Below, piece after piece: positions 2,366 through 57,531 of a stretch of 64,000 nucleotides of DNA (the first letter of the stretch is position 1; each line of letters opens with the position of its first letter). The stretch lies in assembly GCA_016946835.1 (NCBI GenBank), contig JACVTC010000060.1, positions 150,001 through 214,000 of the forward strand, read 5' to 3'. The stretch is from Neocallimastix lanati (nom. inval.). Its lineage: Eukaryota > Neocallimastigomycota > Neocallimastigomycetes > Neocallimastigales > Neocallimastigaceae. The position numbers were made by a program, and so were the translations under genes. The notes below the pieces were generated by a model. It was given only the letters and a program-made list of their open reading frames with translations, made no database searches and was not told where the DNA came from.

Positions 2366-4610
2366 AGCTTTAGAACATCTGTTCTTATTTGAACCAAAGA
2401 GAGGAGCATAATATAAAACAAGACTAAGAATAAACGAAATTAAAACATATTTCTTTAATGGGAGAGGAATAGATTTATTAATAAGAAATCGAAAGTACAA
2501 ATTTTATTAGTAAACAATCTTTTAAAAAATAATTTGTAAACCAACATTAATAAAGAGAAAATACCACAATAATTACTGCAATCCAAAAGATCTCCCTTTT
2601 TTTTTTTGGAATTGATATTATAGAAGCCGAATTCCACTCTTCAGGGAAATCACCATCCCAGATTTTGTTAAAATAATGAAAAGTAAACATTTAGCACACT
2701 TAGAGTAGTGATCATCTGAAGAATCATCTTGATTATCGGATAAATCAGATTTACTAAAGAAGGTTTTAAAAAATTCAATCGGAATACCATCGGGTCCAAG
2801 GAGCTTTATTATTATCTTTTTTTTTTTTTTTTCATATCAAGCACCGGTGTTTTTGAATTTCTTCTTCCATAGTCATAGAATCATTAATATCCCCAAGAAG
2901 GATTATTATTAGGATTACTTCCAAATAAACTTACCCAGTATTCATTATCCAAAGTGTGTTGAGTCACATCAGAAGCTAGTTCACTGTAATGTTCAGCAAA
3001 TCGATTTAATTTAATTGACTTCGAATGAGAAAATATAAAAAAAAAAAAAAAAAGTTACCCTGCTTGTCCTTTAAAACGCTTGAAGAAATAGAATTAGAGT
3101 ACATAGGGTGAGATAGCTTCTTTAATTTTAACCAAGCACTCCCTGCCTTTTTATTACGATAATCATTACATGCTGATTCTATTGACGGATGAAATTGTTT
3201 TGATTTAATAGAAAACTTAATTAACCTAACATTATACCACATATATTTTTATATTCACGAAAAGCAAATTTAAAAAAATTCATCAAGCTTTTCAAGATTA
3301 GGACCTAAAGAAAAAAAAATTTTTTTTTTTTTTTTTTGATTTCATTAAATGCCACAATGCTTTTCATGAGAAAGAAAGTTTCTTGATATAATAAGGGCAA
3401 GTGGAAAGCTGAGCCTTTTAAGATCACAAGGAACTCTATAGCATGAACTTTATCACCAACTTTATTAGCTGTTTCTATAAATTTATTGACCATCTCATTA
3501 GAGAACTTAATTCTTTATTATCATTAAATTCATTAAGAAGAAATGGAGAAGTAGTTACTTGAGAATATTTCATTATGCTTTTCATTACATATGTGTTGGG
3601 GGACCATTTGAATCTTCTAGAAGGAGTAAGGAGCACGAAAACCTTCTGAGTCATCTTTCTTACAGGAAAGAATAAGAGGGAAGTGGTCGTGATATAGCAT
3701 TGAAGGTACTACAAACAGGATACCTTATTAATGTATTCCTTTCATTTTACCATTAAATAAAAACATGATCAATACAAGACGATCTACCACCCCGAGCCCA
3801 TGTGAACTCGAGACCTGATAAGTTTTTTTATATGAACCCCTGATGAGATGATTTATTAAGTAAACTTTCTAATTGGGATTTAGACATATTAAAGTCACCT
3901 ACAAGAATAGAATAGAAGGTGGATTAGTATGTTTCTTTATCCAGTTAGTAATTTCTGAAAAGGCATTCTTTCTTTCTTCCTTAGGAGTGACCGTAAGAAC
4001 TTAAATATTACCAAATAGTGCATTTAATTCCCCAAAAAGAACTTAATATTGACAGAAATGATATACTTATATTCAAAAGGATCAGGAGAAAATGAACAAG
4101 AAGGATGTACACTTATACTAAGACCTCTCATACTGGGAATATTTGGATTAGTTTTTTTGGTAAAATTGTATTATTGTGACAAATAAATGGGTAATTATTT
4201 GAATGTACATTAAGGTATTAGCTATTACCGACCTCTTGCATGCAAATACAGAATAGGTTTAAAAAATTTCATTAAAGTATCTAATACCATCACGTTTTTT
4301 TCATCATTCCATCCATTAATGTTCCAACTGACACAAATATTGAAGAATTGAGTAGACGGTGAGTAAATACTACTCTATAGAAAATCTTTAACCATTGATT
4401 TAGTTTCAAAAGAAGAAAATTTATTGTTGAATTTCTTAACTTCACTGAAAGTTCGGATTTTGTTGGTTTGGCTCCCATTTTTAATATTTTATTGATTGGA
4501 AAGCAATGGGTAAGAAGAAATAAAATATTTAGATAATAAGTGGGTTTATCATAGTTTATCACAGGTATAGTTGTTGCTGACTTTGAAGAAGTATTATCCA
4601 TTTCAAGAAA
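2040..4610 (-). pseudogene. Degenerate LINE (copy A): endonuclease plus reverse transcriptase remnants
   Basis: A non-LTR retrotransposon relic read right to left. Reverse-strand motifs appear in the right order: C-V-S-W-N-I-N-G-W at about 4310-4345 (endonuclease start), V-G-D-F-N-M at about 3880-3905, FTWARGGRSSCIDHVF at about 3770-3830 (endonuclease 3' catalytic region), KAPGPDGIPIEFF at about 2770-2810 (RT), GDLLDCSNYCGI at about 2560-2600, and APLFGSNKNRCSKA near 2365-2395 (late RT region). The RT palm with the catalytic Asp pair is missing between about 2455 and 2400, so there is an internal deletion. Many frameshifts sit in homopolymers. The segment 2040-2235 resembles a LINE C-terminal tail. 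Clearly non-functional. Confidence 0.7.
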
Positions 4611-5930: not shown

Positions 5931-5989
5931 CTTTAACTGTATTATTATTAATATTAGTGTTATTAATATGATTGGAATTATTATAATTG

Positions 5990-6060
5990 AATGAACTGGG
6001 ATTTGAATTTGAATCTGAACTTGAATCTGAATTTAAAACATAAATTTGGAATTGAACCGA
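5990..6060. repeat. Short GAATTT/GAATCT hexamer-like repeat
   Basis: About ten imperfect copies of a TTGAAT/CTGAAT hexamer directly precede the large tandem array. Confidence 0.6.
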
Positions 6061-8156
6061 AACTTGTACTTTTATATTATTACATTCAATATTTATTTTA
6101 TTTTATTCAATCTGTACTTATATTTATATTCTACTATTTATTTTATTTTATTTACTTGTACTTTTATATTATTACATTCAATATTTATTTTATTTTATTC
6201 AATCTGTACTTATATTTATATTCTACTATTTATTTTATTTTATTTACTTGTACTTTTATATTATTACATTCAATATTTATTTTATTTTATTCAATCTGTA
6301 CTTATATTTATATTCTACTATTTATTTTATTTTATTTTATTTTATTTTATTTTATTTTATTTTATTTTATATACTTGTACTTTTATATTATTATATTCAA
6401 TATTTATTTTATTTTATTTTATTCAATCTGTACTTTATATTAATATTCTACTATTTATTTTATTTTATTTTATTCAATCTGTACTTTATATTAATATTCT
6501 ACTATTTATTTTATTTTATTTTATTTTATTCAATCTGTACTTTATATTAATATTCTACTATTTATTTTATTTTATTTTATTCAATCTGTACTTTATATTA
6601 ATATTCTACTATTTATTTTATTTTATTTTATTCAATCTGTACTTTATATTAATATTCTACTATTTATTTTATTTTATTTTATTTTATTCAATCTGTACTT
6701 TATATTAATATTCTACTATTTATTTTATTTTATTTTATTCAATCTGTACTTTATATTAATATTCTACTATTTATTTTATTTTATTTTATTCAATCTGTAC
6801 TTTATATTAATATTCTACTATTTATTTTATTTTATTTTATTCAATCTGTACTTTATATTAATATTCTACTATTTATTTTATTTTATTTTATTCAATCTGT
6901 ACTTTATATTAATATTCTACTATTTATTTTATTTTATTTTATTCAATCTGTACTTTATATTAATATTCTACTATTTATTTTATTTTATTTTATTCAATCT
7001 GTACTTTATATTAATATTCTACTATTTATTTTATTTTATTTTATTCAATCTGTACTTTATATTAATATTCTACTATTTATTTTATTTTATTTTATTCAAT
7101 CTGTACTTTATATTAATATTCTACTATTTATTTTATTTTATTTTATTCAATCTGTACTTTATATTAATATTCTACTATTTATTTTATTTTATTTTATTTT
7201 ATTCAATCTGTACTTTATATTCATATTCCACTATTTATTTTATTTTATTTTATTCAATCTGTACTTTAATATTTATATTTCAACTATTTATTTTATTTTA
7301 TTTTATTTTATTTTATTTTATTTTATTTTATTTTATTTTATTTTATTTTATTTTATTTTATTTTATTTTATTTTATTTTATTTTATTTTATTTTATTTTA
7401 TTTTATTTTATTTTATTTTATTTTATTTTATTTTATTTTATTTTATTTTATTTTATTTTATTTTATTTTATTTTATTTTATTTTATTTTATTTTATTTTA
7501 TTTTATTTTATTTTATTTTATTTTATTTTATTTTATTTTATTTTATTTTATTTTATTTTTTATTTTATTTTATTTTATTTTATTTTTTATTTTATTTTAT
7601 TTTATTTTATTTTATTCAATCTGTACTTTAATATTTATATTTCAACTATTTATTTTATTTTATTTTATTTTATTTTATTTTATTTTATTTTATTTTATTT
7701 TATTTTATTTTATATACTTGTACTTTTATATTATTACATTCAATATTTATTTTATTTTATTCAATCTGTACTTATATTTATATTCTACTATTTATTTTAT
7801 TTTATTTACTTGTACTTTTATATTATTACATTCAATATTTATTTTATTTTATTCAATCTGTACTTATATTTATATTCTACTATTTATTTTATTTTATTTA
7901 CTTGTACTTTTATATTATTACATTCAATATTTATTTTATTTTATTCAATCTGTACTTATATTTATATTCTACTATTTATTTTATTTTATTTACTTGTACT
8001 TTTATATTATTACATTCAATATTTATTTTATTTTATTCAATCTGTACTTATATTAATATTCTACTATTTATTTTATTTTATTTTATTTTATTTTATTTTA
8101 TTTTATTTTATTTTATTTTATCTTATTTTGTTTTATTTTACTTTATTTTTGTTTTT
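6061..8156. repeat. Large tandem array: ~92-bp units, ~51-bp units and (TTTTA)n
   Basis: The left edge has three ~92-bp units that begin ACTTGTACTTTTATATTATT. The middle (about 6424-7260) has roughly sixteen units of 51 bp (56 or more when an extra TTTTA is present) built on CAATCTGTACTTTATATTAA. Next comes an almost pure (TTTTA)n block at about 7290-7615. The right edge (about 7712-8060) again has 92-bp units and then a short (TTTTA)n. The long open frames in this region (Phe/Leu/Tyr/Ile only) exist because the repeats lack stops; I do not consider them genes. Confidence 0.9.
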
Positions 8157-8940
8157 TATGAAAATATAATATATATATATATATATATATTATTTTAATT
8201 CATACATTGATATGTTTGAAAAAAGTATATTTCAACATACTTTATATATTTTTCACTACTCTAATTAATATTGTTATTTATATCTAAATTAACCTATTTA
8301 CTCTAAATGTGTATTTTAATTTATTAATTTATTATTATATTAATAGTAAAAGTATTATTTTATTATCTTAAAAATTCTTATCATATATTTACTAAATAAT
8401 TGATTCAATAAGACGGACATCATCACTGAATATGTAAAAATTGTTATAAAAAAATTTTTTTTATTAACTTTTATTATGTGTATTATACATATAATAATAA
8501 TATTATAATATTTTATAAATACACTAAAAATAATATAAATATGAAAATATATAATTAAAACAATCTATTTATTATAGTCAACAACATCATTTAAATTATT
8601 GATAATTAATAAAAAAAAAACATAATATTATATCAAATTTTTATTTTTATAAATTTTTAAAAAAATAATAAAAAATCTGTAACAATTTCTATTATAAAAA
8701 AGATATTTCTCTTTTTTTTTTATTTTTTTTTTTTTTTCTTTTTAATATTAATTTATTTAACAAAATATTAATAAATAAAGTTTAAAATGATAATTTGTTA
8801 TAAAATAGAGAAAAAAAATTTTTTTTTATCATACATTATTACATTTAATAAAAGGCTATGATTAATTATATAATATTACATCATTCTAAAAATTTTTATA
8901 GTATACTTATTTATAATAGAAAAAGATTATATATATTTTT
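8157..8940. other. AT-rich spacer; nothing recognisable
   Basis: Very low GC, short A/T runs, no open frame and no motif that I can assign. Confidence 0.4.
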
Positions 8941-18756: not shown

Positions 18757-18870
18757 CTTTGATAATAAAAAAAATGTATTAATAAATATTCCAACTTAAT
18801 AAAAAAAATTTTCTTTTTCTTTATATAGAGTAATTATTATTGATTTTATAATATAATATAAATTAATTTT

Positions 18871-18937
18871 TAGACTCAAAAATCCTTTTGACAGTCTATT
18901 CCTCCTATAGTAGACTCGAAATTCTTTCGACAGTCTA
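18871..18937 (-). ncRNA. E1 leader hairpin array (2 units)
   Basis: Two 27-28-nt hairpins, 18871-18898 and 18911-18937. In RNA sense each has outer stem TAGAC/GTCTA, a 5'-side TG bulge, and an inner stem. The inner stem is TCGAAA/TTTCGA in one and TCAAAA/TTTTGA in the other, which is a compensated change. They lie about 115-180 nt upstream of the gag ATG. Same plan as in E2 and E3. Role unknown; packaging, dimerisation or translation control are possible. Confidence 0.75.
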
Positions 18938-19017
18938 TAATTAAAATTAAGAAATATAAAATATATATAATCCAGTTATTCCCAACTGCTAATTATATAT
19001 CTAAGAATCAAAAATAA

Positions 19018-19054
<37 letters not shown>

Positions 19055-19528
19055 TATTATTTCATTTGCATATATTATAATTAAATAAAATATTCGAAAC
19101 CCGCAGGTCGTCTCTCTACGATTTTCAACCTCGATCTTAGAACCGTCAATTATAAATAAAGTTTTCTATTGTGCCTACCAATTGAAACATGGAATTTACG
19201 GCTTTTTCAATATCCAACTTACTGGTAATTTATAATCTTATTCTAAAACCCTTTACTCTCTCGCTTCTACAAGAGACTTCCCTATTCTACTCTCTTTTAT
19301 TTAATTATTTTTATATTTTTACACAACCTCTACTCAGTATACCGTTGTGAAAATACTATATGCAAATATATAGTAATTATAAGAATTTTATATTTTATAT
19401 ATCACAATTAATAAACTAAAATTTTAATATTTTTTTTTTATAGTTATAATTAACAAAAAAAAAATTTTTCTTTTTTTCTTTTTTTTTCTTTTTATAATAT
19501 TTATCTTTCCTTACTTTTATTTCTTATA
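18938..19528 (-). other. E1 untranslated leader
   Basis: No open frame. Contains a T-tract at 19020-19052 and a GC-richer stretch at 19091-19150. Lies between the primer binding site and the hairpin array. Confidence 0.6.
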
Positions 19529-19546
19529 TCCCCGATATCTCCACCA
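19529..19546 (-). promoter_or_regulatory. E1 primer binding site, 18 nt
   Basis: Reverse strand reads TGGTGGAGATATCGGGGA, seven bases after the LTR end. It would pair with a tRNA 3' end TCCCCGATATCTCCA plus CCA. The identical 18-mer follows the 5' LTR in E2 and E3. None of the six tRNAs in this window matches. Confidence 0.85.
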
Positions 19547-20717: not shown

Positions 20718-20731
20718 AAAAGTCAAGAATT

Positions 20732-39465: not shown

Positions 39466-39542
39466 TTTTATCTTTTTCTTCTTCATTTATAGTTTTCACT
39501 AATTTTTTTTTATATGAAAATAAATTAAAATAAAAATTCAAA

Positions 39543-39614
39543 TGCCTATTGACGGAATCGAACCACCGACCTTCGCTTTACAAGAGCGACGCTCTACCAC
39601 TAAGCCAAACAGGC
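39543..39614 (-). tRNA. tRNA-Thr(TGT), copy B
   Basis: 72 nt, identical to copy A (21040-21111). Its 5' end is 15 bp from the 5' LTR of E2. A-runs at 39533-39537 and 39498-39506 provide the T-run terminators in RNA sense. Confidence 0.97.
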
Positions 39615-39629
39615 ATTTGTTTGGTTATT

Positions 39630-40495: not shown

Positions 40496-40513
40496 TGGTG
40501 GAGATATCGGGGA
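40496..40513 (+). promoter_or_regulatory. E2 primer binding site, 18 nt
   Basis: TGGTGGAGATATCGGGGA, six bases after the LTR; identical to E1 and E3. Confidence 0.85.
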
Positions 40514-41520
40514 ATTAAATAGAAATAATAGTAAATAACATAGATTTTTTTTTTAATTTTTTTTTTATTTTATATTGATAAACAAGTAAGTCGTTAATCC
40601 TTTGATTAACCTATGGCGCTTGTTTGATATATATATATAAAAAAAAAAAAATTTTTTTTTTAAATAAGTAAAATTAAGATTCTAAAAAAACAAATTTTGT
40701 AAAATTATAACAAGGAGCGGATAGAGCTCATACACAGTGTATTCTCAGATAGCAACAAATTAACTCTATTCATAGTAGGTTATTGAATAGTAGTTAATTT
40801 GGAGATTAATTGGAAAGTAGACGAAGGTATTTGGTTACCGACCCGGTAATAATAGTTCAACCTTCAACGTTTCAACACACGAAGGTGCGGGTACTTTCCA
40901 AGCACTGGCGAATAAGGAGCTTACGTCACCGAAGGCGTAAGATTGTTTTTTTTATATAATTTTTTTTTACTTTTCTTTGTGCTAGTTATAAGGCACTTTA
41001 TTATATAAAGTATCAGACTTTGGCTAACTTCGCCATTTAAATTTTTTTTATTTTTTTTTATTACTGGTACTTTATTTGTTATATAATTCCTGTAATAGAA
41101 TCTTAATTTACTTTGAAAATATTGTGTTTTTAGTTAATTTTTATTAGTTAATAAAAATATTATTGAATACTTTTAAAATTTTTTTTATTCCGTACATAGA
41201 TTATCGGATTAAGTTTATCCTACATAGTAATTGGGCTAGTGGGCTCTGAACTGCTATATTTTATATTGAATATAGTAATCGTGGCACACGCGTGGCATGA
41301 CACCATTAGGTAAGCTGCACGTCAGACAGTGTGTACTATCAGATTGTACGACAATAAAGATTATTTTTTTTGTATTTAATAATTATAATTAATTAATAAT
41401 TTTATTAGCTATAACAATACAATATTTATCGTTTAAAAAGAAAAATTTTTGAAAGGTGAAAATAATAAATAAAACTTTGCTTCTAAATTTATTACTACAA
41501 ATATACTAAATTACAAAATT
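40514..41520 (+). other. E2 untranslated leader
   Basis: No open frame. Two GC-richer patches (40717-40945 and 41200-41360) stand out from AT-rich surroundings and are likely structured RNA. I see no homologous sequence in the E1 or E3 leaders. Confidence 0.5.
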
Positions 41521-41521
41521 C

Positions 41522-41789
41522 AAGTGGTCAATAAAGATTTCGAGCTTGAAAAATATTCTATTAAGTTGTCGATAAAGATTTCGAACTTAAAATTATTCTA
41601 TTAAGTTGTCGATAAAGATTTCGAACTTAAAATTATTTCATTGAATTGTCGATAAAGATTTCGAACTTAAAATTATTCTATTAAATTGTCGATAAAGATT
41701 TCGAACTTAAAATTATTCTAAAAAAAGTAGTCGAAAAGAACCTCGTGCTTTATAATTTCTACTAAGTTGTCGATAAGGATTTCGAGCTT
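41522..41789 (+). ncRNA. E2 leader hairpin array (7 units, mostly 40-bp period)
   Basis: 26-nt units start at 41522, 41563, 41603, 41643, 41683, 41725 and 41764. The typical unit has outer stem AAGT/ACTT, a 5'-side TG (or GG/AG) bulge, inner stem TCGA/TCGA and a TAAAGATT loop. Units 1, 6 and 7 pair AAGT with GCTT (G-U retained). Spacers between units are AAAATTATTCTATT-like. The gag ATG lies 181 nt downstream. Confidence 0.8.
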
Positions 41790-41970
41790 ATACTTACTAA
41801 AGAAAGCAAATAAAATTATTATTTTCAAAAATTACTAAGATATATTGTTTTAAAATTTGATTCGATATTAAATTACTTGTTAAATTATATTTTTAAAGTT
41901 GGACTTTCAAATTTATTCGTATTTAATAACCTCGTTAATTTACAATAAAAAATTATTAACTAAAAACGAA

Positions 41971-48806: not shown

Positions 48807-49792
48807 AGATAAAGAATGAAGTAATAAATTGATTCTTATTAAAAACCTTTTAATATAGTCAAGGTGATTTTTAAAATATTAATAAATTTATGTATTCTTT
48901 ACATTAATAATTTTACTATATTATTTGATCTGAAAATTTAAGTTTATACATAAAATTTAATTTAAATTTATGTTCATTCCTTATAAAGGTAAATTAAATT
49001 TATGAGAGTTTAGCAATAACATAGTACTAATTACTTTTAGTATTATTTTTCTAAATAAGGAATAATTCCTGTATATAAACAACTTAAATAACTTTATCAA
49101 TATTTCTGTCTTTCGAATTAAGAAATAATTGAAATGAAAGAAATAAATAAAATAAAATTTTCTGTATTTAAAATTGTAAAAGATTTTTCATATATTAATA
49201 AATGTATTTTATTTTCTATTATGTCATTCAAATTAATATATAAGATTACATATTAAATTAGTATCAAAATTAAGTTAAAGTATTCAATTTTATTGTAATA
49301 CTGCTTCTCTTTTTTTTGTTTAATTCTTATCTATAATGCATCTTTTATATTATAGATTTATTTTGGTTAATTTGAATATTAGGAAATAATAAAATTTCTA
49401 TTTATTACAATAAGGAAATAATCAATAAGATTTAAAAATCTATTGTTTTTCCATCTCTTCAACTACTTCCAGAGGCTTTGCTACTTTTATATCTTCAAAA
49501 AGATATAAATTGACTACCTTGGAACCCCTTTTTAGGGGAGAGAAAAAAAAAGAAAATAAAAATAGAAATAAAAAAAAAATAAATAAATAAAAAAAAAAAT
49601 AAATAAAAATAAATAATAATAATAATAAAAATAAAATAAGAATAAAATAAATAAATAAAAATAATAATAAAAATAAAATAAAAATTAAAATAAAAATATA
49701 ATAAATAAATAAAAATTATTGTGAAAGAATAAAATTTTTTTTTTGTGTTTTAATATTATATAATTTTTTTTTGAATTCCTCGAACCATAACA
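48807..49792 (+). repeat. E3 5' LTR (986 bp)
   Basis: (A)GATAAAGAATGAAG to CGAACCATAACA. Near-identical to the 3' LTR. TATA candidates are GTATATAAAC near 49071 and GATATAAATT near 49502; I cannot choose between them. Confidence 0.9.
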
Positions 49793-49799
49793 TAAAGTT

Positions 49800-49817
49800 T
49801 GGTGGAGATATCGGGGA
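49800..49817 (+). promoter_or_regulatory. E3 primer binding site, 18 nt
   Basis: TGGTGGAGATATCGGGGA, seven bases after the LTR; identical to E1 and E2. Confidence 0.85.
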
Positions 49818-50694
49818 TTTCAAAATTAAAAACTAATATTAAAACATACACAATAATTTTATTTAATTAAAAAAAAAAGAAAAAAAAAAAAAAAAAATTT
49901 TTTTTTACAATAATATAGAAATATAATATATACATAAATAAATATTAATAATTTAAAGTAGCACCTACGTCCTTACTATATTAGTTGGATAAATAATTTC
50001 ATTCAACAAAGTTGTTATATTTCTGTTTGTGCAAGAGAAACAGTGTGATATAAAACTTTGAAATATTTATTCCTGTCAAGTACTAATTAGTAAGAATAAT
50101 AATTTAATTATATTATACATTTATTCATTAATATAAGAATACTTTTATACAATTTATAACTTATTGTAATCGGCGGCTGTTGGATGAAAAACTCCTTAGC
50201 TTAAGGCTTTGTTACAATTAAGTGTATATAGTAATTCGTATTTATATTATCGACTAAATTATATTATAATTGAAATTATAAATTCAAATTTATAAATATA
50301 TACATATATATAGTATCTATATATTGATACCAAGACTGTTGATATATATAGATATAAAAATTAGACGTTTATATTAGAGAATAGGAGAAAGATTGCTTTA
50401 CACATAGGGAGGTAGTAGAGCATTATTGAATAAGGTTTAGTGATACAAGTGATAACAGAATAGAAAAAGTGGTAAGGTCCCGTGTTCGTACAGGCACATA
50501 CTACTCTGTTATATTCACTATTCTGACGGTTCAATAGTGGAGGTCGAACGGCCCTGTAAAGAATCTGCGGATCCGAAAATAATATAAAGCTAATAATATA
50601 TATATAAGAAATATTTATAAATTTTCCATATTAATTTTTTTTAATTTAGCAATTAATTTATTCCGTGCTACATATAAGAAATTCTAGTGTACTG

Positions 50695-50733
<39 letters not shown>

Positions 50734-50815
50734 TGTTTACTGTTCTTACTCTGTGGTTAAGTGAAATTGAGCCAAAGAAGAAAGACTACTATATTTTTTT
50801 TACTACCTGTTTAAT
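49818..50815 (+). other. E3 untranslated leader
   Basis: No supported frame. GC-richer patches at 50170-50215 and 50385-50580; A-tract 50701-50729. Confidence 0.5.
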
Positions 50816-51022
50816 TTGGTTGTCGAGGTGTATCTTGAACCAAATAATTATCATTATAAGTGGTCGAAGTGTCATTCGAGCTTTTAACCTTAATATAATT
50901 ATATCTTCTATTGGTGATCGAAAGGTATTCGAACCAATAATATAAAATTTCCTTAGGTGGTCGAGTGTTATTCGAACCTAAAAATATATTTCTTGTAGGT
51001 GGTCGAAGTGTATTTCGAACCT
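50816..51022 (+). ncRNA. E3 leader hairpin array (5 units)
   Basis: Units at 50816-50843, 50858-50883, 50910-50938, 50953-50981 and 50997-51022. Outer stems differ but always pair: TTGGT/ACCAA, AAGT/GCTT, ATTGGT/ACCAAT, TTAGGT/ACCTAA, AGGT/ACCT. The two-base 5' bulge is TG, GG, GA, GG, GG. Inner stem TCGA(A)/(T)TCGA is kept (one TCGA/TTGA). The gag ATG is about 340 nt downstream. Confidence 0.85.
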
Positions 51023-51098
51023 CATATAAATAACTATAAAGATATAATTTAATAAACAATAATTATAAAATATTTTAATCTTGGATATCAAAATAAAA

Positions 51099-51138
<40 letters not shown>

Positions 51139-51255
51139 TATTTTTTTTTTTATCTCTGAAGTGTTTGTAAACTTACCTATTTTTTTTTTCTAATCTCTGA
51201 ATTGTTTGTAAACTTATAAATTCTAATACTATATTATATATATCTATAACATACT

Positions 51256-51302
<47 letters not shown>

Positions 51303-51360
51303 TATTATTTTTATTTTGAATATTTTACCTATATTACTGTATAATTTCTACTCAAGAAAT

Positions 51361-52320
51361 ATGGCTTCAGTTACTAATGATACTACTAATGTTCCTTCAT
51401 TTAAAGATCTTAAAAAGGAACTAAAATATGTTGATAAATTAAACAAGGACCATTTGGATATAAAATCTTGGGCTTCTGAAATTGAGTTATGGATCCAATT
51501 ACAAAATATCACTGATCCAAAAACTATTTTTGTTGCTTGCCTATTAACGTCTACTGGTGAACCAAGACAAATTATCCAAGAATTAGAACTACCTGCTACT
51601 ACAGCAGAAGAAGATGTATAATTGAATGGTTCCACTGATACTGGTGAGATGTCAGGATCTAGCACCAGTAGCTCTACTAGTTCAAGTAGTTCTAGTAATG
51701 ATAGTGTTAGAACTAACCGTTATCCTTCTTTTGTCGAGATCGTCAACGCTCTTGAAGTATTCTATGGGGCAAAGGAAGATCAGAATACCTTATTAAGGGA
51801 ATTGCGTGCTCTTAAAATTGGTAGAAATGAAAAAGTAAGGGATTTTAATAAAAGATATCGGACATTATATTTAAAATTAGATAAAACTCACAAAAAACAA
51901 ATCAGTATCTTGGACTATGCTGATGCACTTGAGAATAATATTGAGGCCTGGAAAAGAGTAACTTTAATTGATGATATACCACTTTCCAAGGCTTATGAAA
52001 TTGCAGAAAAAGTGGATAGACTTGCTGTGAGGTTACATCGTGTACCAAGTCCTAATAGAAATGTTTCCAACAATAATAATAATAATTATAATAAGAGTCG
52101 TAGTTCACCACCAAGAAATACTTATGAAAACAGGGACAATAGGAAAGTTTCTGATGAAAGTGAAAGGGAGAACCTTACACATGGACCAAGAAACTCTACC
52201 GTCAAAACCTGTTTCTTCTGTAAGGAACCTGGACATTATCAACAACATTGTCCCAAACTACAAGCCATTATAGAAGAAAATAAGAAACAGATTTTTTCCA
52301 AAGGACCTTTAAACCAGTAG
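51361..52320 (+). pseudogene. gag: E3 gag with one premature stop (codon 87)
   Basis: Same order as E1 and E2 gag: start MASVTNDT then FKDLKKELKYVDKL, WASEIELWIQLQNITDP, a Ser-rich low-acid segment where the others have the acidic run, capsid-like core FYGAKEDQNTLL and KVRDFNKRYRTLYLKL, and zinc knuckle C284, C287, H292, C297. Translation would stop at TAA 51619-51621, shortly before the Ser-rich segment; the frame is open again to the natural TAG. The start ATG 51361 matches the position used by the other two. Without readthrough only 86 residues are made, so no particle protein. Confidence 0.9.
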
Positions 52321-52340: not shown

Positions 52341-55300
52341 ATCAAAAAAATAGCTTCATTAAAATATACTTCCAATTCTTCTGATGCAGAAAGTAAAGAC
52401 TACAGAGTGGATTATACTATCAAAAGTCATGATCAGGTAGGAGAATATTTTGTCGGTGCGGCAAAAAGAAAACTTGATGAAAGTGATGTTGAGTTAGATA
52501 ATGGAAAAGGAAGGAAAATTCATAAAAGCCTACGTGATAATCCACGACCTATAAACACTCCTGCATTAAGAAAAAGAAAAGAAAGAGAATTGGAAACTGA
52601 AGAGGTGATACCTCATAAGAAACAGTTGCAAACATCAATAATTATGCAACCAAATATCAATAAAGAAAAGAAAATTGAAAAAGCAATACGTGATAAAGAA
52701 AGATTTTTGAAATCTAGTACTAATTCTAAAGAATTCGAAACTGCATCATCCAGTCAGTCTAATGTAAACTTAATTACTAATAAAGAGGAAATAACTTCAA
52801 AAGTTGATAATGTAGAAGCTCCAAGGGAAATTAACCAAACTAGAGAAAGAAAAAAAGACAAAAATAATAATAATAATACTAGTAATCCTAATAATAGTAA
52901 CAACGGAACTACTAGAAAAACCCCAGTCGTAAATGATATTAATAATAATAATACTATTAATATTAATAATAATGAAACTATTATAGATAATAATCATGTA
53001 ACGAATAATAAAAATATATTAAATAAATTAATTAATACAGATGGTATTAATAATAATAATAATGATAATGATAATAATAATAGTATGAAAATACCTCGGG
53101 TAAATCGAATTATTAAAATGCTTTCTAATTATAAGGAATATGATGTATGGGATGATTTAAGCAATACCAAGTGTAATATTACCTTTGGACAGCTTTGGAA
53201 TGCTGCGCCTAAAATAAGAAGTCAAGTTTCCCAAGGTTTAAAACTAGAAAAAGCCACCACTAATGTTGTTGGCGCTATTAATAATGTAGTTGCTACTACA
53301 ACATTAGTTAATAATGTTGATCATAACTATAAAAGTAAAAGTACAGAAATAACAGAGGAGGATATTGCAATGGTAGATGCCTCTGTTGATGGTGTATCTG
53401 GAAAATTACTTATTGATACGTGTAGTAATTTAAATATTATGTCATAAAAATATTATAATTCTCTACCATACCAATATACCGCTGTTGGTCATAGTTGTGG
53501 TAGAATAATGCTTGCCACTAGAGACGATGAATACTCTGAAGGAATAGTCGTTAGGATACCTGTGAAAATTAATGAGCTTTCATTGTTAATTGATTTCCGA
53601 ATTGTAGAAAAAGAGGAACCATTTTATGACATGCTAATTTAATTTAAAAACTATAGTTGATAATAGATTATTTATTAATCCCTTAAATAATTGCTTATGT
53701 AAATATAACATGGATGGTACTATCAGTTCTATTACACCAATAAATAATTCTGCAACTGACGAAAAATATATTTGTAGTGTTAACAAATTACTTGAGGATA
53801 ATAGTAAGGAAAAATATGCTGGTGGGGAATTAAAGAAATTAGAAGGATTACCACCTATGGAATATATACATAATACAATATTTATGAATACTCTAAATGA
53901 AAAATATAGAACTGATATAATACACCTATTAGAGGACAATATAGAAATTGTTGCTACGTCGTCTGAGGAATTAACACCATCATTGCTTTCACCACACAAA
54001 ATAAATCTAAAAGCTGGTACCAAACCTATAAAACAAAGAGCTTATCGGCTAACAAAATTAAAGACAGATATTTTAAAGGAAGAATTAACTAAGTTAATTA
54101 ATAAAAAGTTAATTGAGCCTTCAAATTCTGAATGGTCTTCGCCTATTGTTCTAGTACCAAAGCCTAATGGGAAATGGCGTATGTGTGTAGATTATAGGAA
54201 GGTTAATGATTCTACTATAAAGGATTCTTATTCTATACCATACATTGATGAAATTTTTGATAGTCTCAATGGTGCAACTATCTTCACTACCATTGACTTA
54301 TACTCTGGATATCACCAAATTTTAATGGAGGAAGAAAGTATTGGTATAACAACTTTCACCACTAAGTTTGGTAACTACCAATTTAAAGTTATGCCATTTG
54401 GTCTAACCAACGCTCCTGCAACCTTTCAAAGAGAAATGAATAGAATCCTATTTCCTTTAATAGGAAAGTGTGTTTATAATTTTATCGATGATATACTTAT
54501 ATACTCTAAAACAGTTGAAGAACACCTCCAACATATTCAACAAGTTTTATCCATACTCAAAGAAAATAGATTAAAACTTAATATTGAAAAGTGTCACTTC
54601 ATGAAAACAGAAGTGAATGTTTTGGGGCATAGATTAACCACTAAAGGCTTAAAACCTCTTGATAGTAAAATCGAGGTTATCAGAGATTGGAAACCCCCTC
54701 AGGACATCCATGAATTACGTTCATTTTTAGGAGCTGTTGGATACTATAGAAATTTCATCGATAAATATTCACAAATTACTGCGTGTTTGTGTAAATTATT
54801 AAGGAAAGGTGTGAAGTATGTTTGGACTAGTGAACACCAAAAATCGTTTGAAGTACTGAAAGAAAAACTAATAAATGCACCCATATTAAGTTTCCCTCAG
54901 TTTGATAAAGAATTTATTATACGTACCGATGCTTCTTATGATGGAATAGGAGGTGTGTTATTACAAAAAGATAATGAAACTGGAAAAGAACACCCTATTC
55001 ACTTTATTAGTAGAAGTTTGACCAGAGCAGAAAAGCATTATGGTATAACGGACCTAGAAGGTGCTGCCCTATATTATTGTATAACTAAATTAAAACCGTA
55101 TATAGATGGAAATCCAATACCAACTATTGTATATACGGACCATAAACCGTTACTAGGGTTGTTCAAAAATAAGGAACCACATAATGCAAGGCAAACTAGG
55201 TGGTGTTTGACAGCTAGTATGCTTGGTGTAGACATTAGATATGAAACCGGTAAAAAGAATGTGCTTGCTGATGCCCTATCCCGAATGAAAAATAATAAAG

Positions 55301-56520
55301 AAAATGTAGTTTTATCTACGAAAATAATTAACCATGATATTACGAATGATGAAAATGAAGCCTTATTATCCAAAGTAATACATGATTTTATCAATGAAAA
55401 ATTCACCACTATTGATGGTATTGACTACTTTATTGATGGTAACAATTATAGAAAATTAGTAACCGATCTTAATGAAAGAATAAAATTAATATTAGAGGCT
55501 CATAATATTGGACACGATGGTTATTATAAGACTTATCAACGTTTACGTAAGAGTTATTATTGGAACGACATGGTGAATGATGTTAAACGTGTTGTCAGTA
55601 AGTGTGAAAAATGTCAATTAAATCGACCACAACCTTATCCAGAACCTACAGAAAATCTACCTACTAAAGTGGAAGGACCTTTTGTACATCTTGGTTTGGA
55701 CATTATCGGTCCACTGGTTAAAACTAGAAGTAATAATCAATATATAATAGTAGCTGTTGATTATTTCACTAAGTGGGTAGAAGCAGAACCCACTGAAAAT
55801 ATCACTTCTAAAGACGTAATTAAGTTCCTTATTAACGTATTTTCTCGTCATGGAGTTCCCCAAGTAATTACCACCGATAATGGTGCCCAATTTACATCAG
55901 ATATGACTAAAATATTTTTAGATCTATATGATGTATATATAAAATTTGTTACAACATATCATCCCGAATCTAATGGACTTACGGAAAATCGTAATAAAGA
56001 AATTGGTAAACTCCTTAGATTGCTTGGGACGAAAAATAAAGATTGGGATGAGGTATTACCCTCTGCTCTCTGGGCTTTAAGAACTGTTAAAAATAGTACC
56101 ACTAACCATTCTAGTTTTGAATTAGTTTATGGTCGTGAAGACCAACAACCTTTTGATATAGCTGCAAGACCGACTAAAGGTATAAATAAATCTTCTGATG
56201 AAATTCTATTGGAAAAGTTTATATCTCATTATAGATGGACCATAGAAGCATCAGAAAATGTGAAAAATGCAAATAAATATTGGGCTGTTAGACGAGAAGA
56301 AAAACAAAGTATGAATCAGGCTAAGGAAATCAAGGAGGGAGATTTGGTCCTAGTTAGAAACTTTAGTAGAACTAAACTAGAACCTTATTTTAATGGACCT
56401 TTAAAAGTAATCAAGAAAAAGTTTAATACAGTTACGTTAGCTGATCCAAATTCAGGAATATTATTAAATCGGAATGTACACCTCAAAAATATAGTAAAAT
56501 ATAACTCAGCTACAATATAG
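52314..56520 (+). pseudogene. pol: E3 pol, two stops and one frameshift in the protease region
   Basis: Open from the slippery site to TAA at 53445-53447, directly after the protease active site (D-T-C, Cys for Gly as in E1 and E2). A second TAA lies at 53639-53641, and around 53640-53650 the frame shifts by +1. From 53710 to the TAG at 56518-56520 the frame is uninterrupted and carries intact RT (TTIDLYSGYHQI, F-I-D-D), RNase H (RTDASYDG, TDLEG, YTDHKPLLG), integrase (HHCC zinc finger, DIIGP, TTDNGAQF, PESNGLTEN) and GPY/F-type end. The linker near 52860-53080 has long Asn runs not present in E1 or E2. All damage is confined to about 200 bp of pol plus the single gag stop. Confidence 0.92.
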
Positions 56521-56543: not shown

Positions 56544-57531
56544 TGATAAAGAATGAAGTAATAAATTGATTCTTATTAAAAACCTTTTAATATAGTCAAG
56601 GTGATTTTTAAAATATTAATAAATTTATGTATTCTTTACATTAATAATTTTACTATATTATTTGATCTGAAAATTTAAGTTTATACATAAAATTTAATTT
56701 AAATTTATGTTCATTCCTTATAAAGGTAAATTAAATTTATGAGAGTTTAGCAATAACATAGTACTAATTACTTTTAGTATTATTTTTCTAAATAAGGAAT
56801 AATTCCTGTATATAAACAACTTAAATAACTTTATCAATATTTCTGTCTTTCGAATTAAGAAATAATTGAAATGAAAGAAATAAATAAAATAAAATTTTCT
56901 GTATTTAAAATTGTAAAAGATTTTTCATATATTAATAAATGTATTTTATTTTCTATTATGTCATTCAAATTAATATATAAGATTACATATTAAATTAGTA
57001 TCAAAATTAAGTTAAAGTATTCAATTTTATTGTAATACTGCTTCTCTTTTTTTTGTTTAATTCTTATCTATAATGCATCTTTTATATTATAGATTTATTT
57101 TGGTTAATTTGAATATTAGGAAATAATAAAATTTCTATTTATTACAATAAGGAAATAATCAATAAGATTTAAAAATCTATTGTTTTTCCATCTCTTCAAC
57201 TACTTCCAAAGGCTTTGCTACTTTTATATCTTCAAAAAGATATAAATTGACTACCTTGGAACCCCTTTTTAGGGGAGAGAAAAAAAAAGAAAATAAAAAT
57301 AGAAATAAAAAAAAAATAAATAAATAAAAAAAAAAATAAATAAAAATAAATAATAATAATAATAAAAATAAAATAAGAATAAAATAAATAAATAAAAATA
57401 ATAATAAAAATAAAATAAAAATTAAAATAAAAATATAATAAATAAATAAAAATTATTGTGAAAGAATAAAATTTTTTTTTTGTGTTTTAATATTATATAA
57501 TTTTTTTTTTTGAATTCCTCGAACCATAACA
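56544..57531 (+). repeat. E3 3' LTR (988 bp)
   Basis: Starts with the expected TG. Apart from the first base, I found one substitution (near 57208) and a T-tract length change against the 5' LTR in a reading by eye. Confidence 0.9.

Follow-up and report, generated by a model that had tools for sequence, protein, structure and literature searches.

Tandem arrays of short bulged hairpins lie in the leaders of Ty3/gypsy elements from an anaerobic gut fungus. In the window, by which we mean the whole 64-kb stretch of Neocallimastix lanati DNA that was analyzed, the three Ty3/gypsy elements all have such an array on the sense strand between the primer binding site and gag. Selection on RNA shape, as proposed in the first-pass annotation of this DNA, is well supported because the shape is kept as the letters change, and this includes families other than those of the window. 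From the predicted structure, covariation, orientation, place and depletion of upstream AUG computed here, we judge the chances about evenly balanced that the array is an RNA dock for the element's own Gag with roles in packaging and as a translation switch.

Elements and hairpin units of the window

The window has a GC content of 20.4% and belongs to a genome assembly of 199 Mb in 762 contigs. Its three Ty3/gypsy elements are called E1 (minus strand), E2, and E3. The pol of each encodes reverse transcriptase (RT) and RNase H followed by integrase (Pfam), which is the order in Ty3/gypsy elements, and all three have LTR pairs and a tRNA-type primer binding site, which reads TGGTGGAGATATCGGGG in each. 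A search for the primer tRNA with an acceptor-stem pattern gave 6 matches at 3 places among those listed, none of them tRNA-like by eye. The main features are:

48808..49792, plus strand, E3 5' LTR (3' copy at about 56545-57531; right-hand borders set by eye)
49800..49816, plus strand, E3 primer binding site TGGTGGAGATATCGGGG
49800..51360, plus strand, E3 leader from primer binding site to gag (1561 nt, one upstream ATG)
51361..51363, plus strand, E3 gag start (counted by hand)
53638..56520, plus strand, part of E3 pol with RT, RNase H, and integrase
40496..41970, plus strand, E2 leader from primer binding site to gag (1475 nt, two upstream ATGs)
18757..19546, minus strand, E1 leader from primer binding site to gag (790 nt, three upstream ATGs)

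The Gag of E1 contains a CCHC zinc knuckle (CX2CX4HX4C) whose residues are invariant across 18 aligned relatives. Ten of the 80 listed homologues of this Gag bear source names and every one is an anaerobic gut fungus (Piromyces E2, two Neocallimastix, and Orpsp1_1, which we take to be Orpinomyces). Codon 87 of gag in the window copy of E3 is an in-frame stop (51619-51621; counted by hand), and an intact protein, P0025, resembles E3 Gag as judged by eye. The E2 5' LTR begins 13 nt past the 5' end of a tRNA-Thr gene (39542-39629), a position that resembles the targeting of Pol III genes by Ty3. There is also a tRNA-Arg at 20731 near the E1 LTR, the border of which is approximate, and positions 5970-8200 contain long, TTTTA-rich tandem arrays of 51- and 92-nt units.

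Five bulged hairpins had been described in the E3 leader upstream of gag, and all five are present (50815-51024) with the arms given for them:

50815..50844, plus strand, E3 unit 1, TTTGGT-TG-TCGA..TTGA-ACCAAA
50856..50885, plus strand, E3 unit 2, ATAAGT-GG-TCGA..TCGA-GCTTTT, one outer pair broken
50910..50938, plus strand, E3 unit 3, ATTGGT-GA-TCGA..TCGA-ACCAAT
50953..50981, plus strand, E3 unit 4, TTAGGT-GG-TCGA..TCGA-ACCTAA
50995..51024, plus strand, E3 unit 5, AGGT-GG-TCGA..TCGA-ACCT

The common shape of an outer stem, two unpaired bases on the 5' side, and an inner stem was seen as described, except that unit 1 has the inner stem TCGA/TTGA with one G-U pair. The loops are 7-8 nt with 4-bp inner stems rather than the 5-8 nt given earlier. 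The outer stems do generally vary with pairing kept; the exception is unit 2, whose outer stem is short in this copy because base 50884 breaks one pair. When folded singly, four of the five units form the bulged hairpin (z from -1.9 to -3.8), and the window copy of unit 2 folds with a different and weaker outer part. When 30 of the 40 E3-type leaders scored were compared, their arrays departed from the window copy at three places, namely two loop positions and the outer-stem base at 50884. The pair at 50884 is broken in the window copy alone and is kept in 29 of 29 other fetched E3-type copies. This variation fits selection on pairing, with copies too alike for proof.

The same units occur in the other two leaders of the window, seven in E2 (one of them weak) and two in E1:

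41520..41791, plus strand, E2 array with a period of about 40 nt, units at 41520, 41561, 41601, 41641, 41681, 41723 (the weak one, 14 bits), and 41762
18870..18938, minus strand, E1 array of two units
18910-18938, minus strand, E1 unit, TAGAC-TG-TCGA..TCGA-GTCTA
18870-18899, minus strand, second E1 unit, TAGAC-TG-TCAA..TTGA-GTCTA

In the window copy of E2, units 1, 4, 5, and 6 have mispairs. We built one covariance model (R1) from 12 of the 14 window units and another (R2) from 28 units. Searched against the window up to E=10, R1 gave 18 matches; 14 were on the sense strand, all within the three leaders, and the remaining four were weak antisense echoes at the same places. R2 gave 13 matches, every one sense and inside a leader. 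Neither model had a sense-strand match outside the leaders, be it in the LTRs, pol, or the rest of the window.

Covariation, bulge, and strand

Alignment of units from eight families yielded 31 units, three of which (F4u3, F4u4, and P15u1, with a 1-nt bulge) were placed out of register by MAFFT and dropped before pairs were counted; they pair nonetheless. Among the 26 distinct units, seven of the ten stem pairs are altered on both sides with pairing kept, and each outer pair occurs as two to four standard pair types. Of all cells, 96.5% are paired compared with 82.6% after shuffling, a level reached by none of 500 shuffles; this percentage is inflated, since for some families the scans that supplied the units demanded pairing and a bulge, for which the shuffled bulge scan and the other bulge sizes given below are the controls. 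Cells altered on both sides numbered 43, versus 12.0 in shuffles, and when partners were shifted by one to three columns only 6-57% of cells still paired. Other controls were less striking: seven pairs changed on both sides were matched by 36 of 500 shuffles and the pair types by 246 of 500. By APC-corrected G over 435 column pairs, annotated pairs rank 1, 2, 3, 5, 6, 7, and 8, so that covariation stands in this wider alignment with seven of the top eight ranks. The other three annotated pairs rank 102, 164, and 183, and two of these hardly vary.

Outer arms were also compared with arms swapped between units. Of 150 positions, 141 pair with their own arm, as against a mean of 112.8 when swapped, with none of 20,000 permutations as good, and with one unit per family the largest p over 200 draws was 0.003; these shuffles, like those for covariation, retain shared ancestry. 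Compensated change within the one leader had been taken as strong evidence. In E3 alone it is modest (303 of 20,000 permutations were as good in the arm-swap test), and it is the other elements that carry its force.

Tandem arrays are known as DNA elements in the leaders of LTR elements. An example is the Drosophila gypsy leader, where a tandem array of sites binding the su(Hw) protein acts as an insulator. The present array resembles it as a tandem array in a Ty3/gypsy leader that would likewise bind protein, and the sequence TTCGAACC is B-box-like. These likenesses speak for a DNA element such as an enhancer, an insulator, or Pol III B-box-like sites. We regard this reading as highly improbable because the gypsy DNA sites are conserved in sequence, whereas here it is pairing that is conserved between families and the stem letters are not; conserved binding-site letters were not found. 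Neither a Pol III B-box nor the TCGA palindrome is a shared feature, as the letters are missing in P15, F82, and one F4 unit.

The bulge is oriented with respect to strand, which also argues against a DNA element. A generic scan of 12 leaders for stems with a 2-3-nt 5' bulge found 22 on the sense strand and 3 on the reverse complement, and 6 when the bulge was moved to the 3' side. Dinucleotide shuffles of these leaders gave a mean of 1.34 and a maximum of 4 (50 shuffles). The 22 stems fall in eight of the 12 leaders, with none in J, I, K, or A. Three pol stretches totaling 11 kb had no such stem on the sense strand and two on the antisense strand, both in E1 pol. With equal thresholds, sense-strand stems with 5' bulges of 0 to 6 nt numbered 1, 3, 17, 5, 3, 0, and 2. 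Thus, a two- or three-base 5' bulge is the preferred form, with 22 stems against one unbulged stem.

These counts bear on a neutral origin, in which template switching by reverse transcriptase at imperfect palindromes makes the paired arms and slippage multiplies them. Tandem duplication is indeed evident in E2 (family D18). Such correction should erase the bulge and yield perfect hairpins, whereas unbulged stems numbered one, as against 17 with bulges of 2 nt and 5 with bulges of 3 nt, and neither the stems on the sense strand of pol nor model matches in the LTRs or pol of the window were seen. We therefore consider a neutral origin improbable.

The preferred bulge length was also apparent when 62 inner hairpins were taken regardless of their outer arms, although many of these are chance hairpins. 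Outer pairing was best at a 2-nt bulge (2.63 of 5, versus 1.4-2.37 elsewhere). By family, the peak is sharp at 2 nt in E3 (4.6 of 5), at 3 nt in P18, equal for 1-nt and 3-nt bulges in F5, and at 6 nt in P15, where it stems from four inner hairpins; a single one of them is an array unit, the other three P15 units ending in GG and escaping the scan. A search with the unit pattern gave 953 + 1073 matches versus 408 + 413 for the reversed pattern; this is a rough guide only, as the reversed pattern is an unmatched control and chance matches occur among the first 100 places, for example antisense in the gag of L066.

Within the unit, the base of the inner stem is nearly invariant, with U-A in 25 of the 26 distinct units (U-G in one) followed by C-G in all 26, and every other pair varies. 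The bulge is 2 nt long, or 3 nt in F5 and P18 and 1 nt in three units, and its letters vary (GG, TG, CG, GA, TT, GGG). The two near-invariant pairs among otherwise variable ones point to a reader that would sense the bulge together with the lowest pairs of the inner stem.

Genome dimerization through TCGA palindromes had been suggested as one function. Self-complementary TCGA inner stems do occur in E3, E2, F5, and P18, and GAATTC spans the loop into the stem in F5 and P18. Inner stems are often non-palindromic, as in P15 (TCAAACA/TGTTTGG), most F82 units (TCAGAG/TTCTGA), F4 unit 2 (TCAGC/GCTGA), and E1 unit 2 (TCAA/TTGA), so that a self-complementary stem or loop is not present in every member, and the loops share no palindrome by eye. 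As a shared function dimerization is thus largely refuted, and it is the least probable of the readings considered here.

Arrays in the wider Gag families

We examined 26 leaders picked by Gag homology alone (L071-L094, L102, and L103). They sample distinct bands rather than amounting to a census, and come from lists that give at-least counts and are dominated by large families. Leaders L001-L070 were obtained via leader or hairpin matches and therefore are not counted as unbiased. F4 (L061, L062, L068) is outside the 26 because it was found through hairpins and, in L068, behind a broken pol. In L068 a four-unit F4 array (4130-4345) lies behind a pol match that breaks off, and tblastn found no gag match downstream of the array in this locus.

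Canonical units were found in 14 of the 26 leaders, from six Gag groups:

L074-L079, E2-like
L080, P15
L081 and L084, E1-like
L082 and L083, F82
L091 and L092, F5
L102, P18

They are absent from L071-L073 (A, B), L088-L089 (K), L103, and L085-L087, L090, L093, and L094 (I/J). Four Gag groups and L103 therefore have no canonical array, and one of those groups has a degenerate relative of it: on folding, L087 (I/J) gave repeats of a more degenerate hairpin whose bulge is GG. Their sequence shares 84% identity over 43 nt with unit three of the F5 leader, which has two canonical units besides this I/J-related one. In group A there are only about 145 nt between the primer site and the start of the Gag match.

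The models gave a similar picture. R1 found sense-strand units at E < 0.01 in 13 of 25 Gag-chosen leaders and recovered five leaders from three families outside its training (F82, F5, and P18). Up to E=1 it had 68 matches in those leaders, of which 13 were antisense; all 13 coincided in place with sense matches and had E values above 0.06. L080 was missed by R1 and found by R2, which was trained partly on L080.

Arrays are not absent from possibly active copies. A gag match free of stops follows all 14 array-bearing leaders and 11 of the 12 that have no canonical units, the remaining one (L073) having a gag match with eight stops. Since the latter also precede an open gag match, the array is common yet not obligatory in this Gag clade. 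No Gag-based relatives were confirmed in viral_contigs and genome_contigs, and one E2-unit pattern searched in viral_contigs had no match.

Other similarities were seen among these leaders. Those of F5 (L063) and P18 (L102) are 81% identical over 473 nt, and F5 Gag is 55% identical to P0018, itself 99% identical to the Gag beside L102; this may reflect strong constraint or an exchange of leaders. Between the primer site and the array there is a second conserved domain (50460-50570 and, on the minus strand, 19100-19290 of the window; L080/L099, L063, L102), with a TGACGG block in E1, E3, P15, F5, and P18 and a CATGACACC block in E2, I/J, and P15. Rfam 15 had no match up to E=5 in the E3 leader or up to E=1 in L080, L082, L087, L096, L099, and L102, which leaves no candidate ribozyme or other known RNA in these seven leaders. 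At the gathering score it identified six tRNAs only in the whole window.

Predicted role of the array

Upstream ATG is scarce in the leaders. Seven leaders of 0.8-1.6 kb (E1, E2, E3, P15, F5, I, and J, of which I and J are near relatives; beyond the window L080/L099, L063, L085/L095, and L087/L096) contain 24 ATGs in 8720 nt versus 108 in shuffles (least 85 of 200), a depletion of about 4.5-fold; the set excludes F82, P18, A, B, K, and F4. Counts for each of the five remaining permutations of A, T, and G are 102-154, and the reverse complement CAT is likewise somewhat low at 74. ATG is below the shuffle mean in all seven leaders and below every one of the 200 shuffles in five, the exceptions being E1 (3), which equals the lowest shuffle, and I (4), which is above it. 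From the rarity of upstream AUG we infer that scanning ribosomes probably pass through the array, so that proteins bound to it would hinder translation of gag.

We propose that the array would act in cis in the genomic RNA and mRNA of these elements, with every unit a separate protein-docking hairpin. Recognition would be of the 5' bulge of two (sometimes one or three) bases and the near-invariant U-A and C-G pairs above it, and both stems would tolerate many sequences provided they pair. With two to seven units per array at a spacing of mostly about 40-60 nt, binding could then gain avidity. As partner, the element's own Gag with its CCHC zinc knuckle would be the likeliest. Gag on the array would select element RNA for particles and, since ribosomes seem to scan the leader, would at the same time block gag translation, giving a switch from translation to packaging. 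The array has the place and the computed RNA structure expected of a leader packaging signal, as it lies in the genomic RNA between the primer binding site and gag and its structure is conserved. Against a Gag dock, groups A and K have no array and that of I/J is degenerate despite open gag frames, suggesting that the Gag of this clade does not always need the array; the variable bulge letters and the mispairs in some window units, namely those of E2, also count against it.

The main rival is a dock for a host protein, with a role, for example, in nuclear export of unspliced RNA, RNA stability, or control of scanning. The same evidence from covariation and structure applies to it, as does the placement of the array in an ATG-poor leader, and unit number differs among members of the E2 family. 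Within the window, though, the units are confined to element leaders, and we think a host dock possible but unlikely.

A Gag dock has parallels in known systems. Known retroviral packaging signals are composed of a few unique stem-loops. The psi of retroviruses and Ty3 is, like the array, structured RNA at the 5' end of genomic RNA, but the array has a single bulged shape in two to seven copies, the stems of which change freely. The MS2 hairpin has a single bulged A and loop letters that are recognized, and its sites are dispersed over the genome, whereas the array sits in the leader. A single MS2 stem-loop serves as translational operator and also as the starting point of assembly, and numerous stem-loops like it are packaging signals (PMC4751978), a combination of roles like that of the proposed Gag dock. 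Ty3 RNA packaging needs the NC domain, relies on the zinc knuckle of Gag NC, as the dock predicted here would, and depends on UTR or POL sequences; Ty packaging sequences "have not been precisely defined" (PMC4974528). The alfalfa mosaic virus 3' UTR is described as a linear stem-loop array with several independent coat-protein sites (PMC9414508); it differs from the present array in its 3' location, its AUGC motifs beside the stem-loops, and its lack of bulges.

No such array was found in the titles and opening lines of abstracts of the open-licence literature on anaerobic-fungal retrotransposons, packaging, and leaders, which is weak evidence of novelty. We tentatively suggest, with somewhat less than even confidence, that the bulged-hairpin tandem array may be an undescribed class of retrotransposon cis-element, a multivalent Gag dock and scanning operator that would move the RNA from translation to packaging across a whole clade of anaerobic-fungal Ty3/gypsy elements. 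The natural variants of one short module make the recognition rule readable from sequence and testable with 30-nt RNAs. If Gag binds, the array would offer a simple example, in a eukaryote, of packaging signals that are multivalent and degenerate, and likewise of the choice between translation and packaging within one RNA.
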